Origin: Kiritimatiellia bacterium
Lineage (GTDB): Bacteria > Verrucomicrobiota > Kiritimatiellia > PWTM01
Assembly (NCBI GenBank): GCA_026417735.1
Contig: JAOACR010000003.1
Span: 1-64,000 of the forward strand
DNA length: 64,000 nucleotides
Direction: 5' to 3'
The notes below the pieces were generated by a model. That model was given only the letters and a program-made list of their open reading frames with translations. It had not been told where the DNA came from and made no database searches. Shown piece after piece: positions 18,084-29,598 of the stretch. Each line of letters begins with the position of its first letter. Position 1 is the first letter of the stretch. The position numbers and the translations under genes are program-made.

Positions 18084-21000
18084 TCAATAGCCGATCAGCA
18101 ATCCCTCGAAGCCGGCGAGGTCGGCAGGGGTGAGCGATGCCCGACGGGCGATTCGCAGCCGGAGGCCATCCCCCTCCCCGCGGTCGACCGAACCGCCGCT
18201 TATCACGGCGCAGCGGGCGGACTGCGCGGCGGTGTCCATTCCCAGCACGATGATCGTCAATCCGCTGGCCGCCAGACGCTCCGCAAGCGCGGAGATCCAG
18301 TCGTCGCCCGGCCAGGTTCGGAAGGCGAGCACGAGCCCATCCGCATTGACCTGACGGACGCGGCCTTCGATTTCCGACGGGACCGCGCCGGCGGCGCTCC
18401 GGCATTCCACCATCGGCAACAGCCAGATGCGGTGGTACCGCGCGAAGATGTGGTAGACGGCCGGATCGGGTGTGGCGGGCCCGGTCCAACGACCGTCAGT
18501 TTCCACCGTGAACCAGGCCGGACACAGCGCGGTGAGGAACGGCGTGTCGTTACGGATTGCGGCCAGTTGCTGATCGGTTTCGTCGCCGGAGCTGGTGGGA
18601 GCGAGCGCGGCCAAGCGCGGCTGGAGGGGCCCGGCACGGAGCGAGGTGAACTCTGCGGCGGCCTGACCGCGGGTGGGCGAGTGGACCGCGAGGCCGATCC
18701 ATCCGGCACGGATGTCGGAGGGAATCACGAGCCGTGTCGCGAACGCGGGCTCGCCGTCGACGAAGCCCATCGCGCCCCGGCCGTTGACTTCCAGACGCAG
18801 CGGAGTGAAACCGGCGGGCGGGATCCACTCGCGCTTCATTTCCTGCAGCAGACGCCCATCGCGCCAAACCTGGAGGTGCAACCGGCCCTCGGTGAAGCCG
18901 AACCGTACGAGGTGGCGTTCGGTGCGACGAGCGTACAGCCACACACCGCCGTGAATCCCGCCGACGGAAGCTTCCACGAGCGCGTCGCGGGTCTGCAGTG
19001 AACCCAGCAAACGGGCGGAGGCTTCCGCATAGGCTTCACCTGCGGCGAGGCGGATGCCGCCGCCCGCACGCGCAGTCACGTCGCCGCCCTCGATCCACCA
19101 GCGGTTCGAGAGGCGTCCCTCCGCCATCGTCTCCACTGCGGGAGTACCGACCGGCAGAAGCCGTGCGCAGAGCTCGGCGATTCGGGGATCTCGGTTGTCT
19201 GCTGCAATGGCGCGCAACGTGGCCATCAGCGGGGCGGCGGCGGGGAGCGCGGGAAGCTCGTACTTCCAGCACGACTGCGCAAACGGAAGATGGTTGAAGG
19301 GCTTGAGACCGGCGTTGGCCAACCGCTCGATCGCGTTCCGGTACTCGGCGGCATCCCGAGTGTGGCGCACGACCATGGCGAGCGCCTCGACGTGTTCGGG
19401 CTGGACTTTCAACAATTTTCTGGCCGCATCCAGCGCTTCATCGGTGCGGCGGTTGTCGACCAGCCACCGTGCCTGTGCGAGCAGAATATCCGGGTTGCCC
19501 GGGAAGAGTCGCGCGTACAGGTTCAAGGACTGCATTGCGCGCTCGGATTCCCCCATTGCGACCAGCACACCGGCCCGGCGGATCGCGAGGGTGATCTGGC
19601 CGGGGTCGAGGTCCAGACTACGATCGTAGTGCTCCACTGCACCCCGCAGGTCGCCTTTGCGCGAGAGCGCATCTCCGATCAGCATGTAGACCTTCGGGTT
19701 TTCGGGCTCAATGCTCCTCCATTCCTGCCACAGCTGCACAGCGCGGTCATACTGGCCGTCGAGATAGGCCGCCAGTCCCTCTTGCTGCAGTCGGGCGGCG
19801 CGGCTCTCCTCCGTCTCGATGCCGCCGCGTTCGGCCGCGCCCGGGATCATGAAAAAGAGGGGCATTTCCTCTTCGCTGGCGGGTGCCGGCACTTCCTCCA
19901 CCTTCACCACCGAAACCCCCGTTGCGGTCTGACCGGTGGTCAGAGGGGAACCCGCCGCGACGGCGATCTGAGCTTGCGGGACCATCGCGAGCAGCGAGGC
20001 CACGTGTGAGCGGGTCTCCAGCGTGGGAGGCAGCCGGACCAGCAGCCGAAGACCGTTGGTGGCGAGCATCGAGCCGCACTGGCGCAGCCAGCTGGCAATG
20101 GCGGGCAATCCCGCGTCTTGCGCGGCGGACAGATTGACGAACAGCCCGTCGAACCGCTGGGCGATTGCGCGTTCTGCCAGCAGTGTCGGCGCGGCGCGCT
20201 GCAGCGCCTTTTCATCGGGCAGCAGCACTTGTGGCAGGTAGCGCAGGTGGTTCACACGGGCAGCGAGCCGATAGACGTCGATCTCGGCCGGGGAGGCAAG
20301 GCTGCCGCCGCCGGTGCGGTCGTCCCAGATCGGGCACAGCTCGGTGAGACGGTAGGCCTCTTGATGCACCCACCGAAAGGCGTAAGGTTCGGCAGGCCCA
20401 CCGGCCAGCGAGACGGCCATGGGGGACTGTTCACGCACCTCAACGCCGCGGAGGCGGGCTCGCGCCACTCCCCGTTGCGCTGCCCAGACGCTGATGCCGA
20501 CCATGCCGGGGCGCACGTCGCCGCGCAGCATTCCCCGGCTCTGAAAGACTTCCTTGCCATCGAGCCGCGCAAAGAGGAGGCGGTCGCGCAGGTAGAGTTC
20601 CAGCGTATGGTCTTTGGTCGGGCTCAGAGGCACTCTGGAGGAGGCGAGCGTAAACCGTTCGCTGCCGACGAACTTTTGGCGCAGCCACACGCCCGTGTCC
20701 TCGGCGTCCTCGCCGATCGGGACCCGTTCTCGCCCTTGTGAGAGCTGGCGCAACCACACCTCGCCGGCCGGATCGAGTCCTACGTAGACGTACGATTCAC
20801 TGTCCGGCGACGCGCGCAGGTACAATCCGAGCTGTCCGCGCTCCAGGCGGAAGCGCACCCGCGCATAGAAGTTGCTGTTCAGGTCGCTGCCGGCCAGCCA
20901 CATTTTCGCGCCGGTCGCGTTGGTGGATGCGAACAGCACCAGTGAACCGTCGGGTTCCTGGGACATTTCGCCCCAGTCCACCACCCAGGCCGACGCGATC

Positions 21001-22031
21001 GGTCGGCCGTCCTTTTCGAGTATGGGCGACTCGTTCGGCCAGGCGAGATCGAGACGGCGCACCAGGTCCGCGCCAGACCATTCCGGGCGCACGAGCAGCC
21101 GATTCAGCCGACGGGGGTCGCTGAAGCGGGTGTTCAACGCGAGGTTGCCAACGATGAAGCCGAGCCGGTAGTGCCGGCCGACCAGGCCGAGGTTGATCGG
21201 CCTCGTGGCGACCGCCCGATGCTGGTACTGGCCGAAGTCACCGAACGGATAGGCGTAGGCCAAGGGGGTGACGCCGAGGTTCCGCTCGATCAATTCCCGG
21301 CAAGTCCGATGGTCGCGGTCAAGCCGCGCCTGAAACTCCTCCAGTGTTTCGAAGCGTTGTTCGTCTGCCTTCCAGAGCGGTGCGGTCATGAAGTTGCCGG
21401 TCAAACCTTTTGGGCTGGAGACGATGCGCTGGACGCCCTCGTGACTTTCCGCGCCGATCTCCCACAGGCCGGACCGAAGCATGCTGCGCAGGTACGGCCA
21501 CAGCAGGGCTGCGGGATCCCCGTCCACGATCGGTTTGGTCCAGAGAAACATCACCGCGTTCCATCCGGTCCGGCGCAGGACGGAATGCGTCGCGAAGTAG
21601 GAGGTCTTCCGCGAGTGATCGAAGGTGACCAGCACCGCACGGCGCGGCAACGGCCGACCATCCCGAAAGAGCGCGTCGACATCCGCCAGACGGATCGGCT
21701 GATATCCGGCGGCCTTCAGCGCTTCGATGTGTTCGCGGAAGCGGTCGGGCGAAACGTCGCCTTCCTTCGTCGAGACGCCCTCATACGCGATCGCGACAAA
21801 CGAGACGGCATCGCGCGGGCCGGTGTGGCGCGCGCGGGGCCACAGCACGCGTTCCATTACGATCTTCACCGGCACCCACCATGCGACCAGCAGGCAGAGC
21901 GCCGCCAGAAAGTGCAGCCAGGAGGTCGTATAGGCCACTTTGACGGGTGGTGTGGGACGGCGGTTGTAGAGCGTGTCGTTCGATGGCGGCTCCGGGTTGA
22001 TGGCCGCCGCGGGCGGCTCCGTGGTGCTCAT
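18084..22031 (-). CDS. Giant PgaB-like protein: NodB-type domain, repeated beta/barrel modules, TPR
   Basis: A 1315-residue membrane-anchored protein. A transmembrane helix lies at about 38-62. A NodB polysaccharide-deacetylase fold follows (about 75-330), with VLVTFDHSRKTS, EIGAESHEGVQ and AYAYPFGDFGQY. The usual TFDD is TFDH (residue 139), and the HxxxH metal motif is incomplete, so activity is doubtful. Next comes a LamG-like domain and a barrel-like domain starting LTELCPIWD, then TPR repeats, then a second copy of both, starting LTALCPAWF. PgaB combines a deacetylase with a glycosidase barrel and PgaA carries TPRs, so this may merge these roles (inference). The ATG at 22031 overlaps the stop of the adjacent glycosyltransferase. 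Confidence 0.8.
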   Translation of the reverse strand: MSTTEPPAAAINPEPPSNDTLYNRRPTPPVKVAYTTSWLHFLAALCLLVAWWVPVKIVMERVLWPRARHTGPRDAVSFVAIAYEGVSTKEGDVSPDRFREHIEALKAAGYQPIRLADVDALFRDGRPLPRRAVLVTFDHSRKTSYFATHSVLRRTGWNAVMFLWTKPIVDGDPAALLWPYLRSMLRSGLWEIGAESHEGVQRIVSSPKGLTGNFMTAPLWKADEQRFETLEEFQARLDRDHRTCRELIERNLGVTPLAYAYPFGDFGQYQHRAVATRPINLGLVGRHYRLGFIVGNLALNTRFSDPRRLNRLLVRPEWSGADLVRRLDLAWPNESPILEKDGRPIASAWVVDWGEMSQEPDGSLVLFASTNATGAKMWLAGSDLNSNFYARVRFRLERGQLGLYLRASPDSESYVYVGLDPAGEVWLRQLSQGRERVPIGEDAEDTGVWLRQKFVGSERFTLASSRVPLSPTKDHTLELYLRDRLLFARLDGKEVFQSRGMLRGDVRPGMVGISVWAAQRGVARARLRGVEVREQSPMAVSLAGGPAEPYAFRWVHQEAYRLTELCPIWDDRTGGGSLASPAEIDVYRLAARVNHLRYLPQVLLPDEKALQRAAPTLLAERAIAQRFDGLFVNLSAAQDAGLPAIASWLRQCGSMLATNGLRLLVRLPPTLETRSHVASLLAMVPQAQIAVAAGSPLTTGQTATGVSVVKVEEVPAPASEEEMPLFFMIPGAAERGGIETEESRAARLQQEGLAAYLDGQYDRAVQLWQEWRSIEPENPKVYMLIGDALSRKGDLRGAVEHYDRSLDLDPGQITLAIRRAGVLVAMGESERAMQSLNLYARLFPGNPDILLAQARWLVDNRRTDEALDAARKLLKVQPEHVEALAMVVRHTRDAAEYRNAIERLANAGLKPFNHLPFAQSCWKYELPALPAAAPLMATLRAIAADNRDPRIAELCARLLPVGTPAVETMAEGRLSNRWWIEGGDVTARAGGGIRLAAGEAYAEASARLLGSLQTRDALVEASVGGIHGGVWLYARRTERHLVRFGFTEGRLHLQVWRDGRLLQEMKREWIPPAGFTPLRLEVNGRGAMGFVDGEPAFATRLVIPSDIRAGWIGLAVHSPTRGQAAAEFTSLRAGPLQPRLAALAPTSSGDETDQQLAAIRNDTPFLTALCPAWFTVETDGRWTGPATPDPAVYHIFARYHRIWLLPMVECRSAAGAVPSEIEGRVRQVNADGLVLAFRTWPGDDWISALAERLAASGLTIIVLGMDTAAQSARCAVISGGSVDRGEGDGLRLRIARRASLTPADLAGFEGLLIGY

Positions 22032-23530
22032 CGTGTCCCCCAGTGCGTCTGCCGGACCGTCAGCAGGGAATAGTAGCCCTGCCAGCTGAAGAACAACACG
22101 TACGTGATGGTGAAAAGAAATCCGGCCCACCAGTGCGGCCGGCTGGTTTTTTCGAGGTAGTAGAACGACCACAGCAACGTCACCAGCAGTACGCCGATCA
22201 CGTAAAAGCCGGCGGGCCGGCCGTACACGATCGGTCCGATCACCAGCGCGTGCAGCATCACTAGCGGCGCAATCAGCGGCAGGATCGTCATCGCATACCA
22301 GGACACTGCGGCGACGGGATGCTTGCGCCACATCCATCGGCCGGCGAACAGCATTTCGCGCACCCACGAGCGCTTCCATCGCGCCTGCTGCCGGATGTAC
22401 TTGCCCCACGTTTCGGGCACGATCGTGGTCGCCAGCGCCTCGTCGTCATAGAGGATGCGGTAGTCGCGCAGCAGGAAGTTCGTGAGGCTGCGATCGTCGC
22501 CATAGGTGCAGTAGCGGCCGAGGAACTTTTGATGCAGCCAGCGGTCAAGCACGTTCAGCACGCAACTCTTGCGGTAGGCGGAGAAACAGCCCGGGCAGCA
22601 ACTCACCGCGCCGAACACGCTCTCGGCCGCCTTCATCACGCGGTAGGAGACAAAGTAGCGCACGTCCTGCATTTTCGTGAGCGCATTCACGTTCACGTTT
22701 TCGACGTCGGTGTGTCCCGCCACCGCGGCGACGGTCGGATCGGCGAGGCCCTGGAGGACCTTCCGGATTGAGCCGGGCAGCAGAAAACTGTCGGAGTCTA
22801 CGTAGATGAGGAACTCGCCCCGCGCGAGGAGCGCGCCAATCGCCATGCCGTGTCGTTTGCCCTTGTTCTCTTCGAAGTCCACCACCACCAGAGACGGGTG
22901 ACGCCCCTGCGCGGCGAGCATTTCGTCCAGCGTGTTGTCCGTGGAACCGTCGTTGACGACAATCACCTCGAGGCGGTCGTGCGGGTAGCCCTCCGCATAG
23001 ATGCGACCGATGGTTTTCCCGATCGAGTCGCCCTCGTTTCGGCCCGCAATCACCACCGCCGCGGTCGGCTCGAAACCGACATCCGGGGGCGCGACGTAGA
23101 ACGCGGCGATCACAAAGCGCGACAGGATGAACGCGCCGACGGTGAGGCTGTACAGGTTTACCCACGGCTGGTACCAGAAGTACTCGAGATTTTTCAGCTT
23201 GATGTAGATTGCCAGCGACAGCAGCACGATCCCGATGATGCCGAGCAGCACCGTCGGGCCCCGGCCGAGCTGACGATAGCCCTCGTGAACGCTTTTCGCG
23301 CCGACCACGCCCTCGGGTTCTGGTGACCATGGCCGCGCCGGGCCGGTCTCGACGTGGAGTCGCGACTGGCAGAACGGGCAGACCACCGGCGCGGGCGCCT
23401 CGACGACGTGTATCGAGAGCCGGCAGAGCCCGCACCGGCATCGGCGGGCCGTTCGGGTCGCGGAGCCGCTGGCACGTGCCGGGGGGCTTTCCTGTAGCGC
23501 GGCAGATTCGGCCGGCGGTGTGGCGACCAT
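22028..23530 (-). CDS. PgaC/hyaluronan-synthase-like GT2 glycosyltransferase with zinc-ribbon N terminus
   Basis: A 500-residue processive family 2 glycosyltransferase that should polymerise an exopolysaccharide at the inner membrane. The catalytic domain shows VVIAGRNEGDSIG, VVNDGSTDNT, YVDSDS, GDDRSLTNF and the QxxRW-type QQARWKRSW. Transmembrane helices lie before it (VLLGIIGIVLLSLAIYI, LYSLTVGAFILS) and after it (three to four). An N-terminal cytosolic stretch has CRCGLCRL and CPFC pairs, like a zinc ribbon. ATG 23530 is chosen; GTG at 23593 is an alternative. It is the first gene of the operon with the PgaB-like protein. Confidence 0.9.
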   Translation of the reverse strand: MVATPPAESAALQESPPARASGSATRTARRCRCGLCRLSIHVVEAPAPVVCPFCQSRLHVETGPARPWSPEPEGVVGAKSVHEGYRQLGRGPTVLLGIIGIVLLSLAIYIKLKNLEYFWYQPWVNLYSLTVGAFILSRFVIAAFYVAPPDVGFEPTAAVVIAGRNEGDSIGKTIGRIYAEGYPHDRLEVIVVNDGSTDNTLDEMLAAQGRHPSLVVVDFEENKGKRHGMAIGALLARGEFLIYVDSDSFLLPGSIRKVLQGLADPTVAAVAGHTDVENVNVNALTKMQDVRYFVSYRVMKAAESVFGAVSCCPGCFSAYRKSCVLNVLDRWLHQKFLGRYCTYGDDRSLTNFLLRDYRILYDDEALATTIVPETWGKYIRQQARWKRSWVREMLFAGRWMWRKHPVAAVSWYAMTILPLIAPLVMLHALVIGPIVYGRPAGFYVIGVLLVTLLWSFYYLEKTSRPHWWAGFLFTITYVLFFSWQGYYSLLTVRQTHWGTR

Positions 23531-23753
23531 GGCAGCTGGATCAGATCGCAATGATGCCGTCTCCCATGCAGCCCATTGGTTTGAGCTTAGCACAGCGACG
23601 GTCCCATGTGCAAAGCAGCTGAAATGTAAAAATGAGATTCATGCGCCAGCCCGTGCCGGCCGACGCGGCGGTCGTGCACGGCAAAAGTGCCCAAGTCTGA
23701 GTGCTTTGGCTCGGCACGAGCGCAGTGGTGGCCGGCCGGCAGGGTAGCCGGTC

Positions 23754-26700
23754 TCAGCGCGGATCCGGCAGCGATTCGGCGACGACGCGAAATCCGACCG
23801 TCGCGTACCGTCCCCAGGGAGGCAACGGGATCCGGACGTGCGCGGCGGCCCAGCGGGGACGGTCGCGCCACGAGCCGCCGCGGACGACGCGCGGGCCTTC
23901 GGCCGCGGGGTCGTTGCGTCCGTCGTCCGCGTACGGATAGGGACGGTGCAGCGATCGCGTCCATTCGGCCACGTTCCCATGCACATCATGGAGCCCCCAA
24001 GGGTTCGGTCGGTATCTGCCGATCGGGGCCGGGCCGGTGGCCCGATCGTCGCAGTCGCCGGCATGTGGCAACCACGGCGGTGAGTCACGGATCAACAGTT
24101 TCAGAAGGGATCGGTCGGCAAGGTTCGCGAACGCGGAAAAATCGACGGTGGGTTCGCCGTACCACATGGGCGTGCGGCGGCCCGCGCGGGCGGCGTATTC
24201 CCACTGGGCTTCGGTGGGGAGGTCAACGACGCCGCCGATGCGTTCGGACAGCCATCGGCAGACGGCGCGCGCGGAGTGCCAGGAGATGCGGATGGCTGGC
24301 TGAGTCGGCTGGTGGGCGGGCAGGCCGGGACCGACGTGGTCTTTGTTGTACTGGCTGATCGCCCCAGAATCATGGGCGGGATCGCAGAGCCGGACGATCG
24401 CATTGGGGATTTCATGGCGGGAGATCCAGAACGGTGACGGGATCGTGACGGGGTGAGCGGGCCGTTCGTCGTCGGCGCCATCGTCGGCGCCCATCCAGAA
24501 GGTGCCGGAGGGCAGCCGAACCATTTCGAGAACGACGCCGGGGGCTAGTTCGAAGCGCCGGACCGGTGGTGGGGGAAGGGGCGTTTCATCGGTTGTTGGG
24601 GGGGCCGTCCCGGCCCGGCTGCGGGGCGGAGCGCTGTTGGGCGGCGGTGGTTGAAAGGTTACGGCAAGCGGCGGCTGCGGGGGATATTGTTCCCAGTCCT
24701 CTTGAATGCCGGCATATGTTGCACGCAGCTGTGCGCGGAGGTCGGCCCAGCTGGAACGGCGGCGACCGGTTTGCTCGGTCCAGGTGCCATGATCCGGCAC
24801 GTTGAGGTCAAGCCAGGTGATGAGCCGATCCCACTCCTCCGGTGCAAGACGGACGCCGTGGTGGCCTTTCCGCAACAACCACACCAGCTCGCTCGTGTCG
24901 GCGTGGTATTCCATCGGGGGTCGCGGACGGTAGTCGCTTTCGGGACCGGGGCGATTCACGAACGGGTGCAGCGCGACATAGGCCGGCGTGAAATTGCGGA
25001 AAGGGGAAGATCCAGCACTGCGAAAGTCGGGCCGGTCGGCGGAACCATCGTGGCAACCGACGCAACGGCGATCGAGCACCGGTTGCACTTCGCGACGGAA
25101 CGAGAACGGGCGCGGTGGACCGTACCAAGGTTCGATGCGCGAGGGCTCGCGCCGGAACGCGGCGCGAGGCGCCGGAGAAGCCACTTCGGCATTCCGCTCG
25201 TGGCAGCCGACGCAGGAGACGTTCTCGCCGGGCATCGCAGTGAACCACGAACGCATGACCTGCACAGCCGCGCCGTTTCGGTCCAGCGGCTGCAGCGCGA
25301 TGGGGATGTTTGCGGGCACACGGAAGAAGGCGGAACCGTCCTCCTCGACGGGGACGGTGCCAAGAATGCGGCGCGCGTCCCACGGACCGTCGATACCGAT
25401 GTCGATGTGGCCGCCGGTGCCCGGCAGCGCGTAGTGGTAGGCGAACAGACGCAGCGCCCGCACCGTACCGCGTGGGACACCGCGCATGGGTTCGCCGAGA
25501 TACACGTCGTGGATCAGTACGGTCGCATCGTTACGGTTGAGGTCCACGTTGGGGGGGATGATCGGCGGGCGGGGTGATGGCCGCCAAGGTGTCGGTTCGA
25601 GCCAGGCGATGTCGGGGTCCTCGCGGAGCAGCACGAGGTTGTCGAAGACGTCCGCTAGCCAAAGGCCCCACGGGCGGTCGGGGGAGGGTTTCATGGAGAC
25701 GAGAAAATAGCGGCCGGCGCCAGCGCCGGTGGCCGGGTCCGCGAGCGGAACCGGGTGCAGGAACTTCGGCCAGGAGCGGTCCACCAAGCGGTCGGCGATC
25801 ACCGGCGGCACAAGCTGGGCGCGACCGGGAATGCGTTGCACGGCCCCTTCCGCGTCGCGGTCGCCCCGGGACACGTCGAACAGAACCAGTTCTCCCATGC
25901 GGGCGACACCGTGATGGCCGGACACGATTGCGATCAGCCGGCCCGGCTGGCCGGGAATCGGGCGCGCGTAGAAAACGGAGGTGGGCCAGTAGGAGTTGCT
26001 GCCGTACAGCGCACGCTGGTGGGTCCCGTCCGGGTTCATCGTAAACAACAGGCGGGTGAAGTAGTGCGGCGTGTCGGTGTACTCCCATCGGGTGTAGAGC
26101 ACGCGGCCATCTTCGAGCAGCGTCGGGCACCAGTTGTGTTCCTGATCGAAACACAGCTGTCGGACTCCTGAGCCGTCGAGGCGGCATCGAAACAGGTTGG
26201 CGACGCGGGTTCCGCCGCCGACGCAGGGCACGCCGGCGATGCAGGCGGTGGAGGCGAAGATCACGTCGTCGTCGGCCAGGTAACAGGGGTCGTATTGGTC
26301 GCAGGAGGGAGGAAAACCGGAGGTCACCTGGCGGACCTGGCACCGGTCGAGATCGAGCTCGAAGATCTGCCATGACGCGGAAGGTCCCAGCGGCGCAGAG
26401 AACAACAGGCGGCGGGCGTCGAAATGCAGCTCGAGGTCGGCAATCATCGCCGGCGCCTCGGGCGCCCAGATGCGCTGCGGCGGGGCGTCTGGGTGGTCAA
26501 GCTCGAGCGAGACGATTTCCGTTGGGGGGCCCGGGCGCCGTAGCGCGCAGTTGCCCTGCCAGTTTTGCGGAAGGCCGAGTGCTGCGCCATCGAGCTGGCG
26601 GTCCGTCGGCACTGCGCGGCGCAGCGCCAGAATCTTTAGACCTTGCAGCAGAGGGTTGGCGAGGAGTGCCTCGCGCTGCAGCGCGGCGACCTCCGCCTGT

Positions 26701-26936
26701 AGCGCGGCCGGGTTGGTGGCCGCGGCGTGACGGGCGAGCAGCTCTGCGGCGCGGCGCTGCCATTCGGGACCACGAGGATACCGTGGGCCAAACGACGCGA
26801 TCAGGTCTGCGATCGCGTCGTGGACCGCGCGGGGATCCGGAGGCGGCAGCGCGCCGCTGGCGCACAGGGTTGCGATCGCCAGTGTTGCGGCGGCCCCGAA
26901 ACGGAGCCGGTCAGTCCACGGGTATGAGTTCCACAT
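23754..26936 (-). CDS. HzsA-like/diheme cytochrome fused to a SUMF1-EgtB-PvdO domain
   Basis: A secreted 1060-residue fusion. After a signal peptide, residues about 150-560 form a beta-propeller-like region of the type found in hydrazine synthase subunit A and related PVC proteins (FELDLDRCQVRQVTSGFPPS, DQYDPCYLADDDVIF). Two c-type heme motifs follow, CVGCH near 574 and CVGCH near 623. The last 270 residues form a formylglycine-enzyme-like fold (SGTFWMGADDGADDERPAH, LPTEAQWEYAARAG, GNVAEWTRS, VVRGGSWRDRP). The C-terminal cysteines of true FGE are absent, so it should not activate sulfatases. The ATG at 26936 lies 26 nt inside the end of the GH95-like gene. Confidence 0.87.
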   Translation of the reverse strand: MWNSYPWTDRLRFGAAATLAIATLCASGALPPPDPRAVHDAIADLIASFGPRYPRGPEWQRRAAELLARHAAATNPAALQAEVAALQREALLANPLLQGLKILALRRAVPTDRQLDGAALGLPQNWQGNCALRRPGPPTEIVSLELDHPDAPPQRIWAPEAPAMIADLELHFDARRLLFSAPLGPSASWQIFELDLDRCQVRQVTSGFPPSCDQYDPCYLADDDVIFASTACIAGVPCVGGGTRVANLFRCRLDGSGVRQLCFDQEHNWCPTLLEDGRVLYTRWEYTDTPHYFTRLLFTMNPDGTHQRALYGSNSYWPTSVFYARPIPGQPGRLIAIVSGHHGVARMGELVLFDVSRGDRDAEGAVQRIPGRAQLVPPVIADRLVDRSWPKFLHPVPLADPATGAGAGRYFLVSMKPSPDRPWGLWLADVFDNLVLLREDPDIAWLEPTPWRPSPRPPIIPPNVDLNRNDATVLIHDVYLGEPMRGVPRGTVRALRLFAYHYALPGTGGHIDIGIDGPWDARRILGTVPVEEDGSAFFRVPANIPIALQPLDRNGAAVQVMRSWFTAMPGENVSCVGCHERNAEVASPAPRAAFRREPSRIEPWYGPPRPFSFRREVQPVLDRRCVGCHDGSADRPDFRSAGSSPFRNFTPAYVALHPFVNRPGPESDYRPRPPMEYHADTSELVWLLRKGHHGVRLAPEEWDRLITWLDLNVPDHGTWTEQTGRRRSSWADLRAQLRATYAGIQEDWEQYPPQPPLAVTFQPPPPNSAPPRSRAGTAPPTTDETPLPPPPVRRFELAPGVVLEMVRLPSGTFWMGADDGADDERPAHPVTIPSPFWISRHEIPNAIVRLCDPAHDSGAISQYNKDHVGPGLPAHQPTQPAIRISWHSARAVCRWLSERIGGVVDLPTEAQWEYAARAGRRTPMWYGEPTVDFSAFANLADRSLLKLLIRDSPPWLPHAGDCDDRATGPAPIGRYRPNPWGLHDVHGNVAEWTRSLHRPYPYADDGRNDPAAEGPRVVRGGSWRDRPRWAAAHVRIPLPPWGRYATVGFRVVAESLPDPR

Positions 26937-29598
26937 GTTCGATATTGATTGCGGGCGCGCGATCGCCCGCGGCTTCGAGCTGCACCGTCCAGGGGCCGGC
27001 CTCGGGAAGGATGAGGCGCACGGGAGGGCCATCCACGAAGCGGCCGTAGTCGCCAGTGGCGGGTGCGGTCAGCGAAACCGCGATCGGGGTGGCGTCATCC
27101 GTGCCGGTGGCGCGGAGGAAAACGGCGCGCACTTCTGCGCCGGGCCCGGCGGCGCGCAACCGTACATTCCATGTGCCGGCGCGCGGCACTCGCACGCGCC
27201 ACAGAATGCGATCCTCCCGGTCGGTCCAGCGGCCGATGTTACCGGCGGGGGACTTGCGTTCGCGCAGCAGCCGCGTGCCCAGCAGTGCTGCGCTGGTCGC
27301 ATCGAGTCGCAAAACGCCCTCCGGTGTTGCGCGGACCCACGGGGCCTTCTGAGACCCGTACCAGTTGAGGCGGTCCGGATCGGCCGCGACTGGCTCGACC
27401 GCCAGTTCGGCTTCTTCCGGTGGCTGCGCGGCGGGAAGCAGCAACACGCGCTCGCCTGCCCGGAGGTCCACCGTGGTCACCGGCCGGCCCTGTTCATCCG
27501 GCGCGGTGGAGATCGAGAACGGCCGGGAACCCCGCGCGATCACCGGGCCGGTCCAACCGGTGCGGACGCGGCAGGGCGCCCCGGCCAGGCTTTGGATCCG
27601 AATCCATCGCGTGGCTCCGCGGCGCCGCAACGCAGACACCAGAAACGCACCCTCTGCGCGCATGTCGCGGATCACCACATCGGTCCAGTCGGCCGGAACT
27701 GCGGGGAAGACGCGCAGTTGCACGCCAAACGGTTCCATGCACCACGACTGCAACAGCATCTCATGCAGCGATGCGGCGGCGGAGAGGGGTGTTTCGATCA
27801 CCGGGCCGGCCTCGAGGTACATTGTGTTCGGCTGGACGAAACCGTCGAGGAAACGCCGCAGAAAGGCCGCCGCCGCCTCCGCGCGGCCGAGCCAGGCCGA
27901 CATCGCCGCCGCGCCGGTGAAGGAATATCCCTGGTGCGCTCCCTCGAGGCCGATCCAGTGGTCGAGCGAACGTTCCAGCAACGGTCGCTGGCGGGGATCC
28001 TCGGGGTCGTAAAGGTGGAGAGGGTAGAACGCGAGGAGATGCGAGAAGTGTCGGTGCGACTGTGCGAACGGAACACCGGCGCCGACCATGAAACCGGTGC
28101 GCTCGTCCACGGGCAGGGGGGCGAGGCGCGCGAGCGTGTCGCGCCATCGGGGTGCCTCGGGGTCGTCGAGACGGAGATGTTCATGCGCGGCCAGCAGCGT
28201 GGAGAGTGCCCACCGCAGCAGCGCAAGGTTGTAGTGCGTATCCCGAGCACGGTCCGGGTATTCCGGCGAGATGTCTTCCGGGAAATGCAGGCGCCCGTTC
28301 TCGCCGGGTCGGAGCTGGTGCAGCATCCATGCGGCGGCGCGGCGCAGCCAAGGATAGAGGCGCTCGCGCAGAAGTGTTTCGTCGCCGGCGTATCGGTAGT
28401 GCAGCCAGACGTTGTGAAGTGCCCACGTGAGGTTGCCGAACTCCGCGCCGGCGGGCCCGCGGCAGTCGTGATCGGAGGTACGGCCCACCGCTGCGGAGTC
28501 TGCGCGGAACGGCTCCGGAACGTTCGCGATGAGGTTCGACCAGCCCCGATCGATCATGCGGACCAGTGACTCACCCACATCCAGGCGGTTGGCCGCGTAG
28601 ACCGGCCAGTAGGTGAGCTGGAGATTCAGGTTCCACCAGAAACGGGGCCAGGGCGTCGAACGGAACCATGGTCCCATCAGGTCGATTGCCGGACCGTCGG
28701 AACGGGCGGCGGAGGCGAGCTTGTACATCTGGATCCAATAGAAGCCCTCGAGCCGGGTGTCCGGGATCGAAAGAAAATGGCGCGGCCACCAACTGTGCCA
28801 CCACGCGCGATGGTCACGCACCAGGGTGGGCCAGCCGGCAAGCGCCGCTTCGGCGACGTTGGACGCCGCGGCCGCCGGGTCCGGGCGGGGAACCACAGAC
28901 CAAAGGAGCCGACCGCCATTGGCGCCTGCCGGTTGCACGGTCCATGCCAGCGCATAGCCGCCAGCCTCGCGAAACGGTTGCAGCAGGGTTCGGATCGTGT
29001 TCTGTTCGTCGCGCTGCGGGGGGGGATTCAGGTCCTTGGGGCCCAGCGGCTCGCCGCGGAACACCTTTCGTGCGTCCACCGCCGGCTCGTGCACGAGGAT
29101 GGGCTCCACCGCCTCAGCGCCCTCCACAGTCCAAGCGACGGCGTGCACGGGGCGGTCGGCACAAGTGAAGGCCGTCCATGAGATCCGGCCACGGTCGGTC
29201 GTCTGGGTTGCAGTCATTTCGGCGTCCCAGAGGTGAAGGCGCATGGTGCCAGCGAGAGTGCGTCCGACGGGGCGCATCGCGAAGAAACCGATGGCGATCC
29301 GGTTGCCCCGGTCGACGACTTCGGAGTGGCCGATGTCGAAGGCCAGCCAGCCATTGGTCCGGATATACGCCATGGCGCCGAGACGGCCGTTGCCGGTAAA
29401 CGCCCCTTCGTGCCAACGGGCGGGTAGGCGTTCCCAAACGAGGTCGTGGCGGGCGAGAAATTCCGGCCAGACTACGCGGTCCGGAACATCCGACGGGTCG
29501 GTGGATGTCGCTGCGGTGGCGGCCGCCGCTGCCAGAAAAAGCCAGGGCACGAGTAGACGGCCCGCAGCGTTCTCCGGCGGCAGACCGGCGATTCTCAT
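26911..29598 (-). CDS. GH95-like secreted glycoside hydrolase
   Basis: An 895-residue secreted protein with signal peptide (RLLVPWLFLAAAAATAATS), an N-terminal beta domain with WHEGAFTGNGRLGAMAY typical of GH95, an (alpha/alpha)6 domain with FWWNLNLQLTYWPVYAANRL and GFMVGAGVPFAQSHRHFSHLLA, and C-terminal beta domains including MLLQSWCMEPFGVQLRVFPAVP. GH95 enzymes are alpha-L-fucosidases or alpha-L-galactosidases, and the assignment here rests on motif similarity only. A further 150 residues at the C terminus look like an added binding module. The ATG at 29598 sits 7 nt after a promoter-like -10 box. Confidence 0.85.
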   Translation of the reverse strand: MRIAGLPPENAAGRLLVPWLFLAAAAATAATSTDPSDVPDRVVWPEFLARHDLVWERLPARWHEGAFTGNGRLGAMAYIRTNGWLAFDIGHSEVVDRGNRIAIGFFAMRPVGRTLAGTMRLHLWDAEMTATQTTDRGRISWTAFTCADRPVHAVAWTVEGAEAVEPILVHEPAVDARKVFRGEPLGPKDLNPPPQRDEQNTIRTLLQPFREAGGYALAWTVQPAGANGGRLLWSVVPRPDPAAAASNVAEAALAGWPTLVRDHRAWWHSWWPRHFLSIPDTRLEGFYWIQMYKLASAARSDGPAIDLMGPWFRSTPWPRFWWNLNLQLTYWPVYAANRLDVGESLVRMIDRGWSNLIANVPEPFRADSAAVGRTSDHDCRGPAGAEFGNLTWALHNVWLHYRYAGDETLLRERLYPWLRRAAAWMLHQLRPGENGRLHFPEDISPEYPDRARDTHYNLALLRWALSTLLAAHEHLRLDDPEAPRWRDTLARLAPLPVDERTGFMVGAGVPFAQSHRHFSHLLAFYPLHLYDPEDPRQRPLLERSLDHWIGLEGAHQGYSFTGAAAMSAWLGRAEAAAAFLRRFLDGFVQPNTMYLEAGPVIETPLSAAASLHEMLLQSWCMEPFGVQLRVFPAVPADWTDVVIRDMRAEGAFLVSALRRRGATRWIRIQSLAGAPCRVRTGWTGPVIARGSRPFSISTAPDEQGRPVTTVDLRAGERVLLLPAAQPPEEAELAVEPVAADPDRLNWYGSQKAPWVRATPEGVLRLDATSAALLGTRLLRERKSPAGNIGRWTDREDRILWRVRVPRAGTWNVRLRAAGPGAEVRAVFLRATGTDDATPIAVSLTAPATGDYGRFVDGPPVRLILPEAGPWTVQLEAAGDRAPAINIEHVELIPVD

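Follow-up and report, generated by a model that had tools for sequence, protein, structure and literature searches.

The window analysed here is a 64,000-nucleotide stretch of a Kiritimatiellia bacterium (assembly GCA_026417735.1, contig JAOACR010000003.1, positions 1 to 64,000), located on contig 3 of a 3.09-Mb draft genome that is 96.8% complete. Its minus strand carries an open reading frame (ORF) of 1,315 amino acids (aa), verified from its ATG at 22031 to its stop codon at 18084-18086, whose product we call the pseudo-PgaB scaffold. The ATG shares four bases (ATGA) with the stop codon of the glycosyltransferase gene that precedes it and, because of this overlap, the synthase and scaffold genes very probably form one transcription and translation unit. 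The predicted domain order is a hydrophobic anchor, a NodB domain, jelly roll A, barrel A, tetratricopeptide repeats (TPRs), jelly roll B and barrel B (Table 1), an order supported by two AlphaFold models covering residues 64-735 (mean predicted local distance difference test, pLDDT, 71.8) and 728-1315 (mean pLDDT 89.3). Both the TPRs and Polysacc_deac_1 scored above cut-off in a Pfam scan, in agreement with an earlier note on this DNA, made from the sequence alone, which had read TPRs in the protein. A pseudogene was ruled out, as the ORF is intact, has 81% identity in a congener and is conserved across many families.

Table 1. Features of the scaffold and synthase genes in the window (residue numbers are those of the respective protein).
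Feature	Position	Strand	Basis or remark
Pseudo-PgaB scaffold, 1,315 aa	18084..22031	-	ATGA start/stop overlap with synthase gene
Single hydrophobic segment, ~residues 37-60, putative N-terminal inner-membrane anchor	21852..21923	-	Sequence reading, not predictor; Trp38 conserved 0.97
NodB (PgaB-type), residues 76-335, metal ligands lost	21027..21806	-	3vus Z 19.9 and alignments
TFDH, residues 136-139: Asp138 corresponds to PgaB Asp114 (base), His139 replaces metal ligand Asp115	21615..21626	-	
ESHEGV: Glu195 replaces PgaB His184, Val200 replaces His189	21432..21449	-	
YPFGDFGQ, nearly invariant pocket motif (YPFGDIGQ in the porin-fused NodB)	21228..21251	-	
Jelly roll A, residues 341-538, CBM66-like	20418..21011	-	4azz Z 19.0, 159 residues, 2.5 Å
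Barrel A, residues 539-700, degenerate GH18-like	19932..20417	-	GH18 profile matches
DGLFVNLS at the GH18 DGxxxDxE position, catalytic Glu replaced by Ser	20127..20150	-	
TPR domain, residues 739-945	19197..19817	-	Pfam; MamA 3vty Z 18.1
Jelly roll B, residues 965-1137	18621..19139	-	Profile match to jelly roll A, E 3.1e-21; 4azz Z 16.7
Barrel B, residues 1138-1315, more degenerate copy	18087..18620	-	Profile match to barrel A, E 2.3e-16 and 2.5e-17
GT2 processive glycan synthase, 521 aa, HAS/NodC-like (W..QKFLG, GDDRSLT, QQARW, WGTR)	22028..23593	-	Pfam GT2
Cys-rich, zinc-ribbon-like N-terminal motif of the synthase, CRCGLCRLSIH...CPFCQ	23369..23440	-	Sequence reading

The NodB domain is of the PgaB type, as the earlier note had proposed. 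The model of residues 64-735 matches the deacetylase domain of PgaB (3vus_A) over 231 residues at 3.3 Å, and the sequence profiles match at E 4.2e-24. Aligned to PgaB sequences, His139, Glu195 and Val200 occupy the positions of Asp115, His184 and His189, so that all three metal ligands are replaced. The note had seen the TFDD motif altered to TFDH and had offered either a different metal site or a binding-only domain as the consequence. This is neither a point loss nor a sequencing artefact, both being ruled out by the absence of TFDD from all relatives, the opposite of the prevailing intact TFDD among homologues that the earlier note had named as refuting its reading. Among the 71 NodB domains of the scaffold family that were compared, 70 have a residue at the Asp115 and His184 columns. 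The first of these columns never holds Asp (0/70; Gln 29, His 22, Asn 14, Gly 3, Leu 1, Ala 1) and the second never holds His (0/70; Gln 36, Glu 30, Met 2, Lys 1, Gly 1). At the His189 position most members have Phe or Thr, with Phe predominating (45), and one has His; at that of PgaB His55, residues such as Glu, Ala, Asp and Gly occur, and His is absent throughout. The catalytic base column (PgaB Asp114) has Asp in 35 and Glu in 33 of the 71 domains. Despite the loss of its metal residues, the domain has not decayed, since it has the highest mean conservation of the eight scaffold segments, followed by jelly roll B, and 41 of its columns reach at least 90% identity (62 sequences). Because no other domain is as well conserved as this catalytically dead NodB, a binding scaffold would suit it better than an altered metal site, which favours the second of the two options.

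The internal duplication is genuine and far beyond chance. The paired motifs LTELCPIWD/VYRLAAR and LTALCPAWF/VYHIFAR lie at residues 562-592 and 1166-1198, and self-alignment of the two halves, which the earlier note had suggested as a check, gave a BLASTP E-value of 1e-13. With profiles built from 62 family members, the whole A module matched the B module at E 2.8e-32 and the jelly rolls and barrels also matched separately (barrels at E 2.5e-17; Table 1), while mismatched domain pairs gave E 0.19 or worse. What the earlier note called LamG is indeed a duplicated jelly roll, although the models fit a CBM66-like fold better: both match the CBM66 structure 4azz_A, the second together with TPR proteins. 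Many lectin-like folds score similarly to CBM66, and carbohydrate binding by these domains is putative.

The profile of barrel A finds GH18 enzymes (5jh8, E 1.8e-5; 4q6t, E 2e-5; YaaH 4s3k, E 1.4e-3), pointing to a degenerate GH18 barrel; its match to a single Paenibacillus GH18 sequence is weak. The catalytic Glu of the GH18 motif is kept in only three of 62 family members and lost in the other 59, where Ser, Ala, Thr and other residues replace it, and Asn takes the place of the motif's middle Asp in 22/62. For barrel B, the profile search against solved structures returned no match and Foldseek on the TPR half was swamped by TPR proteins, leaving this barrel without an independent fold match and tied to GH18 through barrel A alone. 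A GH153 identity of the scaffold barrel was considered but has no support from sequence, by which the barrel matches GH18. Full-length PgaB is the top Foldseek match (E 1.0e-13), with an alignment spanning model residues 9-654 but a root-mean-square deviation of 16 Å. The earlier note's suggestion of a single chain uniting deacetylase, glycosidase and TPR roles is not borne out as far as working enzymes are concerned, since the metal ligands and the GH18 Glu are lost family-wide and the protein has no porin domain.

The neighbouring synthase carries the processive motif set GDDR.LT, QxxRW, W..QKFLG and a terminal WGT, and the genome has no second processive synthase of this kind. Among solved structures, hyaluronan synthases come nearest to it (E 2.4e-31), and it scores 157 bits with the NodC model versus 109 with that of PgaC, each below its cut-off. 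The nearest plasmid-encoded synthases are a Paenibacillus GT2 (40%), Lactococcus/Enterococcus GT2s (35%) and NodC (29%). By these comparisons it is nearer to hyaluronan synthase and NodC than to PgaC, the likeness assumed in the earlier note, and for this reason poly-N-acetylglucosamine (PNAG) is not indicated as the polymer. A chitin-like, hyaluronan-like or another N-acetylglucosamine (GlcNAc) polymer would be a candidate; the two UDP-glucose/GDP-mannose dehydrogenase-family genes in the genome do not decide the product. The Cys-rich motif at the synthase N-terminus has a weak Zn-ribbon match (E 0.12), and similar motifs occur in synthases of related loci.

Seven scaffold relatives were taken with flanks of up to 8 kb. 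In five of these loci (L036-L040), a second gene lies near the scaffold gene on the opposite strand. Its product, some 1,100-1,370 aa long (partial in L039), begins with a TPR superhelix, continues with a NodB domain and ends in a region resembling an outer-membrane beta-barrel. In a wider set, 30 of 40 copies of this partner end in Phe. Homology of its barrel to PgaA, plausible by eye, found no significant support from BLAST, profile search or hhalign, and on sequence the barrel is best called porin-like only. The PgaA-like role, part of which the earlier note had suggested for the scaffold, would belong to this separate protein. Its NodB domain keeps Asp114 in 39/40 copies, Asp115 in 29/40, His184 in 28/42, His55 in 20/26 and His189 in 12/42. 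In the window's genome the partner gene is on contig 20 (L003, L041), and a PF01522 search of that genome found exactly three NodB proteins, the scaffold and two TPR-NodB proteins. The other TPR-NodB protein, on contig 9 (L002; L042:4941-7406), has no beta-barrel and has the sole complete NodB catalytic set of the genome (YHG, TWDD, SHALDAH; DD, H184, H189); a similar 895-aa frame occurs in the congener (G001, contig 5). Elsewhere, TPR-NodB-porin genes stand in tandem in two or three copies (L045, L046, L068, L081), some of them with degenerate NodB motifs in L045 and L068, as if NodB duties were divided between copies.

We surveyed 346 genomes of the class for the scaffold (E ≤ 1e-60) and for the partner barrel (E ≤ 1e-30), the latter searched with the barrel alignment instead of the full TPR-NodB-porin protein. 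The scaffold was found in 76 genomes and the partner barrel in 81; both were present in 74, the scaffold only in two, the partner only in seven and neither in 263 (Fisher's test, 1.8e-64, shared ancestry ignored). The two genes share a contig in 42 of the 74 genomes, a minimum as the assemblies are fragmented, and are often directly adjacent and opposite (L037, L038, L040, L045, L046, L081). The synthase gene is directly upstream of the scaffold gene in 44 of the 49 loci with room for it, as well as in L036, which the distance rule missed. Among 388 genomes drawn from the phylum the scaffold was confined to the class, and the relatives that public records name are Kiritimatiellae/Lentisphaerae bacteria.

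Taken together, these results make it likely that the protein serves a synthase-dependent exopolysaccharide system as a periplasmic scaffold, anchored in the inner membrane and without catalysis of its own. With an anchor beside the synthase, five glycan-binding-type folds, TPRs and no catalytic task left visible, it is most likely a chain receiver and guide. The synthase would extrude a GlcNAc-containing chain, which the scaffold anchored beside it would receive and hand to the porin complex. On leaving the inner membrane, the chain may be held by the groove of the pseudo-NodB, by both jelly rolls and by both dead barrels; the scaffold TPRs could dock to those of the porin protein, and the porin-fused NodB would deacetylate the chain at the pore mouth. 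In Escherichia coli, PgaA binds the deacetylase domain of PgaB through its pore-proximal TPRs, which increase the activity of that domain 2.3-fold, and the PgaA TPR groove binds the polymer (PMC9384988). In the system proposed here, that TPR-deacetylase contact would be built in as a covalent fusion within the porin protein, while the inner-membrane relative of PgaB would have turned into a guide. Several points weigh against this interpretation. The Asp or Glu retained at the catalytic-base position would be needless in a pure binding domain, glycan binding by the scaffold is predicted from fold similarity alone, and the confidence of the first-half model is moderate. The partner NodB often lacks the third ligand and is degenerate (TFDT/TFDG) in some lineages, and for this reason an active deacetylase in the partner is not assured everywhere. 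Finally, the co-occurrence counts take no account of shared ancestry, and in the window's genome, where the porin gene is on another contig, the pairing is drawn from co-occurrence and from relatives.

The retained acidic residue and the nearly invariant pocket motif YPFGDFGQ would also be expected if the NodB domain were still an esterase or deacetylase, with a different metal site or a metal-free mechanism on this Asp/Glu. We consider this improbable, as the residues at the metal columns (Gln/His/Asn/Gly, Gln/Glu, mostly Phe/Thr) share no conserved ligand set, His55 is replaced by Glu, Ala, Asp or Gly, and the conventional residues sit in the neighbouring partner family. The different metal site raised by the earlier note is unlikely on the same ground. 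Even less probable is a glycosidase-type polymer editor in which the duplicated barrels cut while NodB merely positions the polymer: barrel A is related to GH18, and PgaB and PelA couple a deacetylase with a hydrolase, but the rarity of the catalytic Glu, the Asn at the middle motif position and the further degeneration of barrel B all speak against cleavage.

A scaffold that works with the synthase alone, the TPR-NodB-porin protein serving another pathway and the co-occurrence reflecting only shared ancestry, would agree with the unlinked porin gene in the window's genus (contig 20 versus contig 3) and with the seven genomes that have the porin without the scaffold. The gene pairs on one contig, often adjacent and opposite, the 74 concordant versus nine discordant genomes and the single processive synthase of this type in the genome nevertheless make such separate pathways unlikely. 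A scaffold that guides the chain towards the porin protein is our preferred explanation.

Other genes lie around the system. In the window, a large ORF upstream of the synthase gene (23754-27032, minus strand), with a C-terminus that reads like a formylglycine-generating-enzyme domain, keeps its order with its neighbours in the congener locus L034 and is probably outside the secretion system. In the congener (G001, contig 21; L050:8998-12399), the gene next after that of the TPR-NodB-porin protein encodes an MBOAT O-acyltransferase, and about 1.3 kb beyond it there is a DUF459/SGNH gene; DUF459 genes adjoin the system in L039 and L044 too. These MBOAT and DUF459 neighbours suggest that the polymer is O-acetylated. 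Two loci (L044:7140-11833 and L043:7660-12380) have extra genes for a protein of about 800 aa, in which TPRs are joined to a jelly roll/barrel relative of the scaffold C-terminal half, and for a GHL10-type glycosidase-like protein of about 770 aa. Genes for a KaiC-like ATPase and an ExeA-like AAA ATPase, accompanied by a small predicted membrane protein, recur beside the system (L040:15948-17678, L044:12809-14709, L048:554-2395) and possibly regulate it.

How a chain travels from the inner-membrane synthase to the outer-membrane pore is still unsettled for the export of PNAG, Pel, alginate and cellulose. In the present case, guiding seems to have been separated from catalysis in evolution, one PgaB relative keeping only the fold and the other NodB being fused to the pore. 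If so, the guiding function is isolated and open to direct test, and a PgaA-PgaB-like contact is available as a single chain. A hexosamine-rich, glycosaminoglycan (GAG)-like exopolymer has been reported from cultured Kiritimatiellae (PMC7356697), and these genes would be candidates for the synthesis of such polymers, so far without assigned enzymes. N-sulfation is not indicated here, as no Sulfotransfer_1 was found in the window's genome. The arrangement is probably new among synthase-dependent secretion systems. We give about an even chance to the fuller proposal of an undescribed, lineage-wide secretion type of the diderm Kiritimatiellae, with a dead PgaB-type guide at the inner membrane and a deacetylase that sits between the TPRs and the barrel of the porin, a type that would descend from a simpler synthase/pseudo-NodB/GH18 set also present in monoderm Paenibacillus and perhaps make a GAG-like exopolymer.

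That simpler set is seen in an operon on a Paenibacillus cellulositrophicus plasmid (NZ_CP045296; L117:4586-12216) encoding a PilZ-GT2 protein, a polysaccharide deacetylase family protein and a GH18 protein. Its synthase, which carries PilZ, is 41% identical to the window synthase over 395 aa. The second gene encodes an anchored NodB-jelly roll protein matching the scaffold profile at E 7.4e-19 over 431 columns, also without His184 and with FED instead of FDD. Unlike barrel A, the GH18 protein is encoded by a separate gene and keeps its catalytic Glu (GVEIDYE), and the operon of this monoderm has no TPRs, duplication or porin. Literature searches on GT2/NodB/GH18 synthase operons, this one included, found nothing, and it is apparently uncharacterised. 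The comparison suggests that synthase, pseudo-NodB-jelly roll protein and GH18 are an old set, and that in the Kiritimatiellae the GH18 component was fused, duplicated and inactivated while TPRs and a porin were acquired, a direction of change that we infer.

The scaffold shares with PgaB a NodB2-type domain followed by a barrel, but differs in its replaced metal ligands, two jelly rolls, TPRs, second barrel and N-terminal hydrophobic anchor, and in a barrel whose sequence relates to GH18 whereas that of PgaB is GH153; it scores 91.7 bits with the whole-protein PgaB model TIGR03938, under the cut-off of 321.9. The partner is the counterpart of PgaA in having TPRs and then a C-terminal beta-barrel-like region. 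It differs by the NodB domain between them and by a barrel profile that does not match PgaA (49.8 with the PgaA model; cut-off 366.65). A pgaABCD-type set is not present, the synthase not being of PgaC type and a two-domain PgaB with a metal site being absent, and no PgaD was noticed beside the system's genes at the loci viewed. Inactive NodB domains without metal ligands are known elsewhere, in Ba0150 (4M1B) and EcCDA (2VYO) (PMC10967932); these are isolated cases outside the PgaB type, whereas the scaffold represents a family-wide loss within that type, in a secretion operon. Among GT2 enzymes, hyaluronan synthase, NodC and chitin synthase are the best matches to the window synthase and have the same motifs, to which it adds its Cys-rich N-terminal motif. 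BcsB, the periplasmic subunit of cellulose synthase, is an inner-membrane-anchored and catalytically silent protein in which two jelly rolls alternate with two alpha/beta domains. Its alpha/beta fold differs from those of the scaffold, and the likeness is an analogy in how the two proteins may work.

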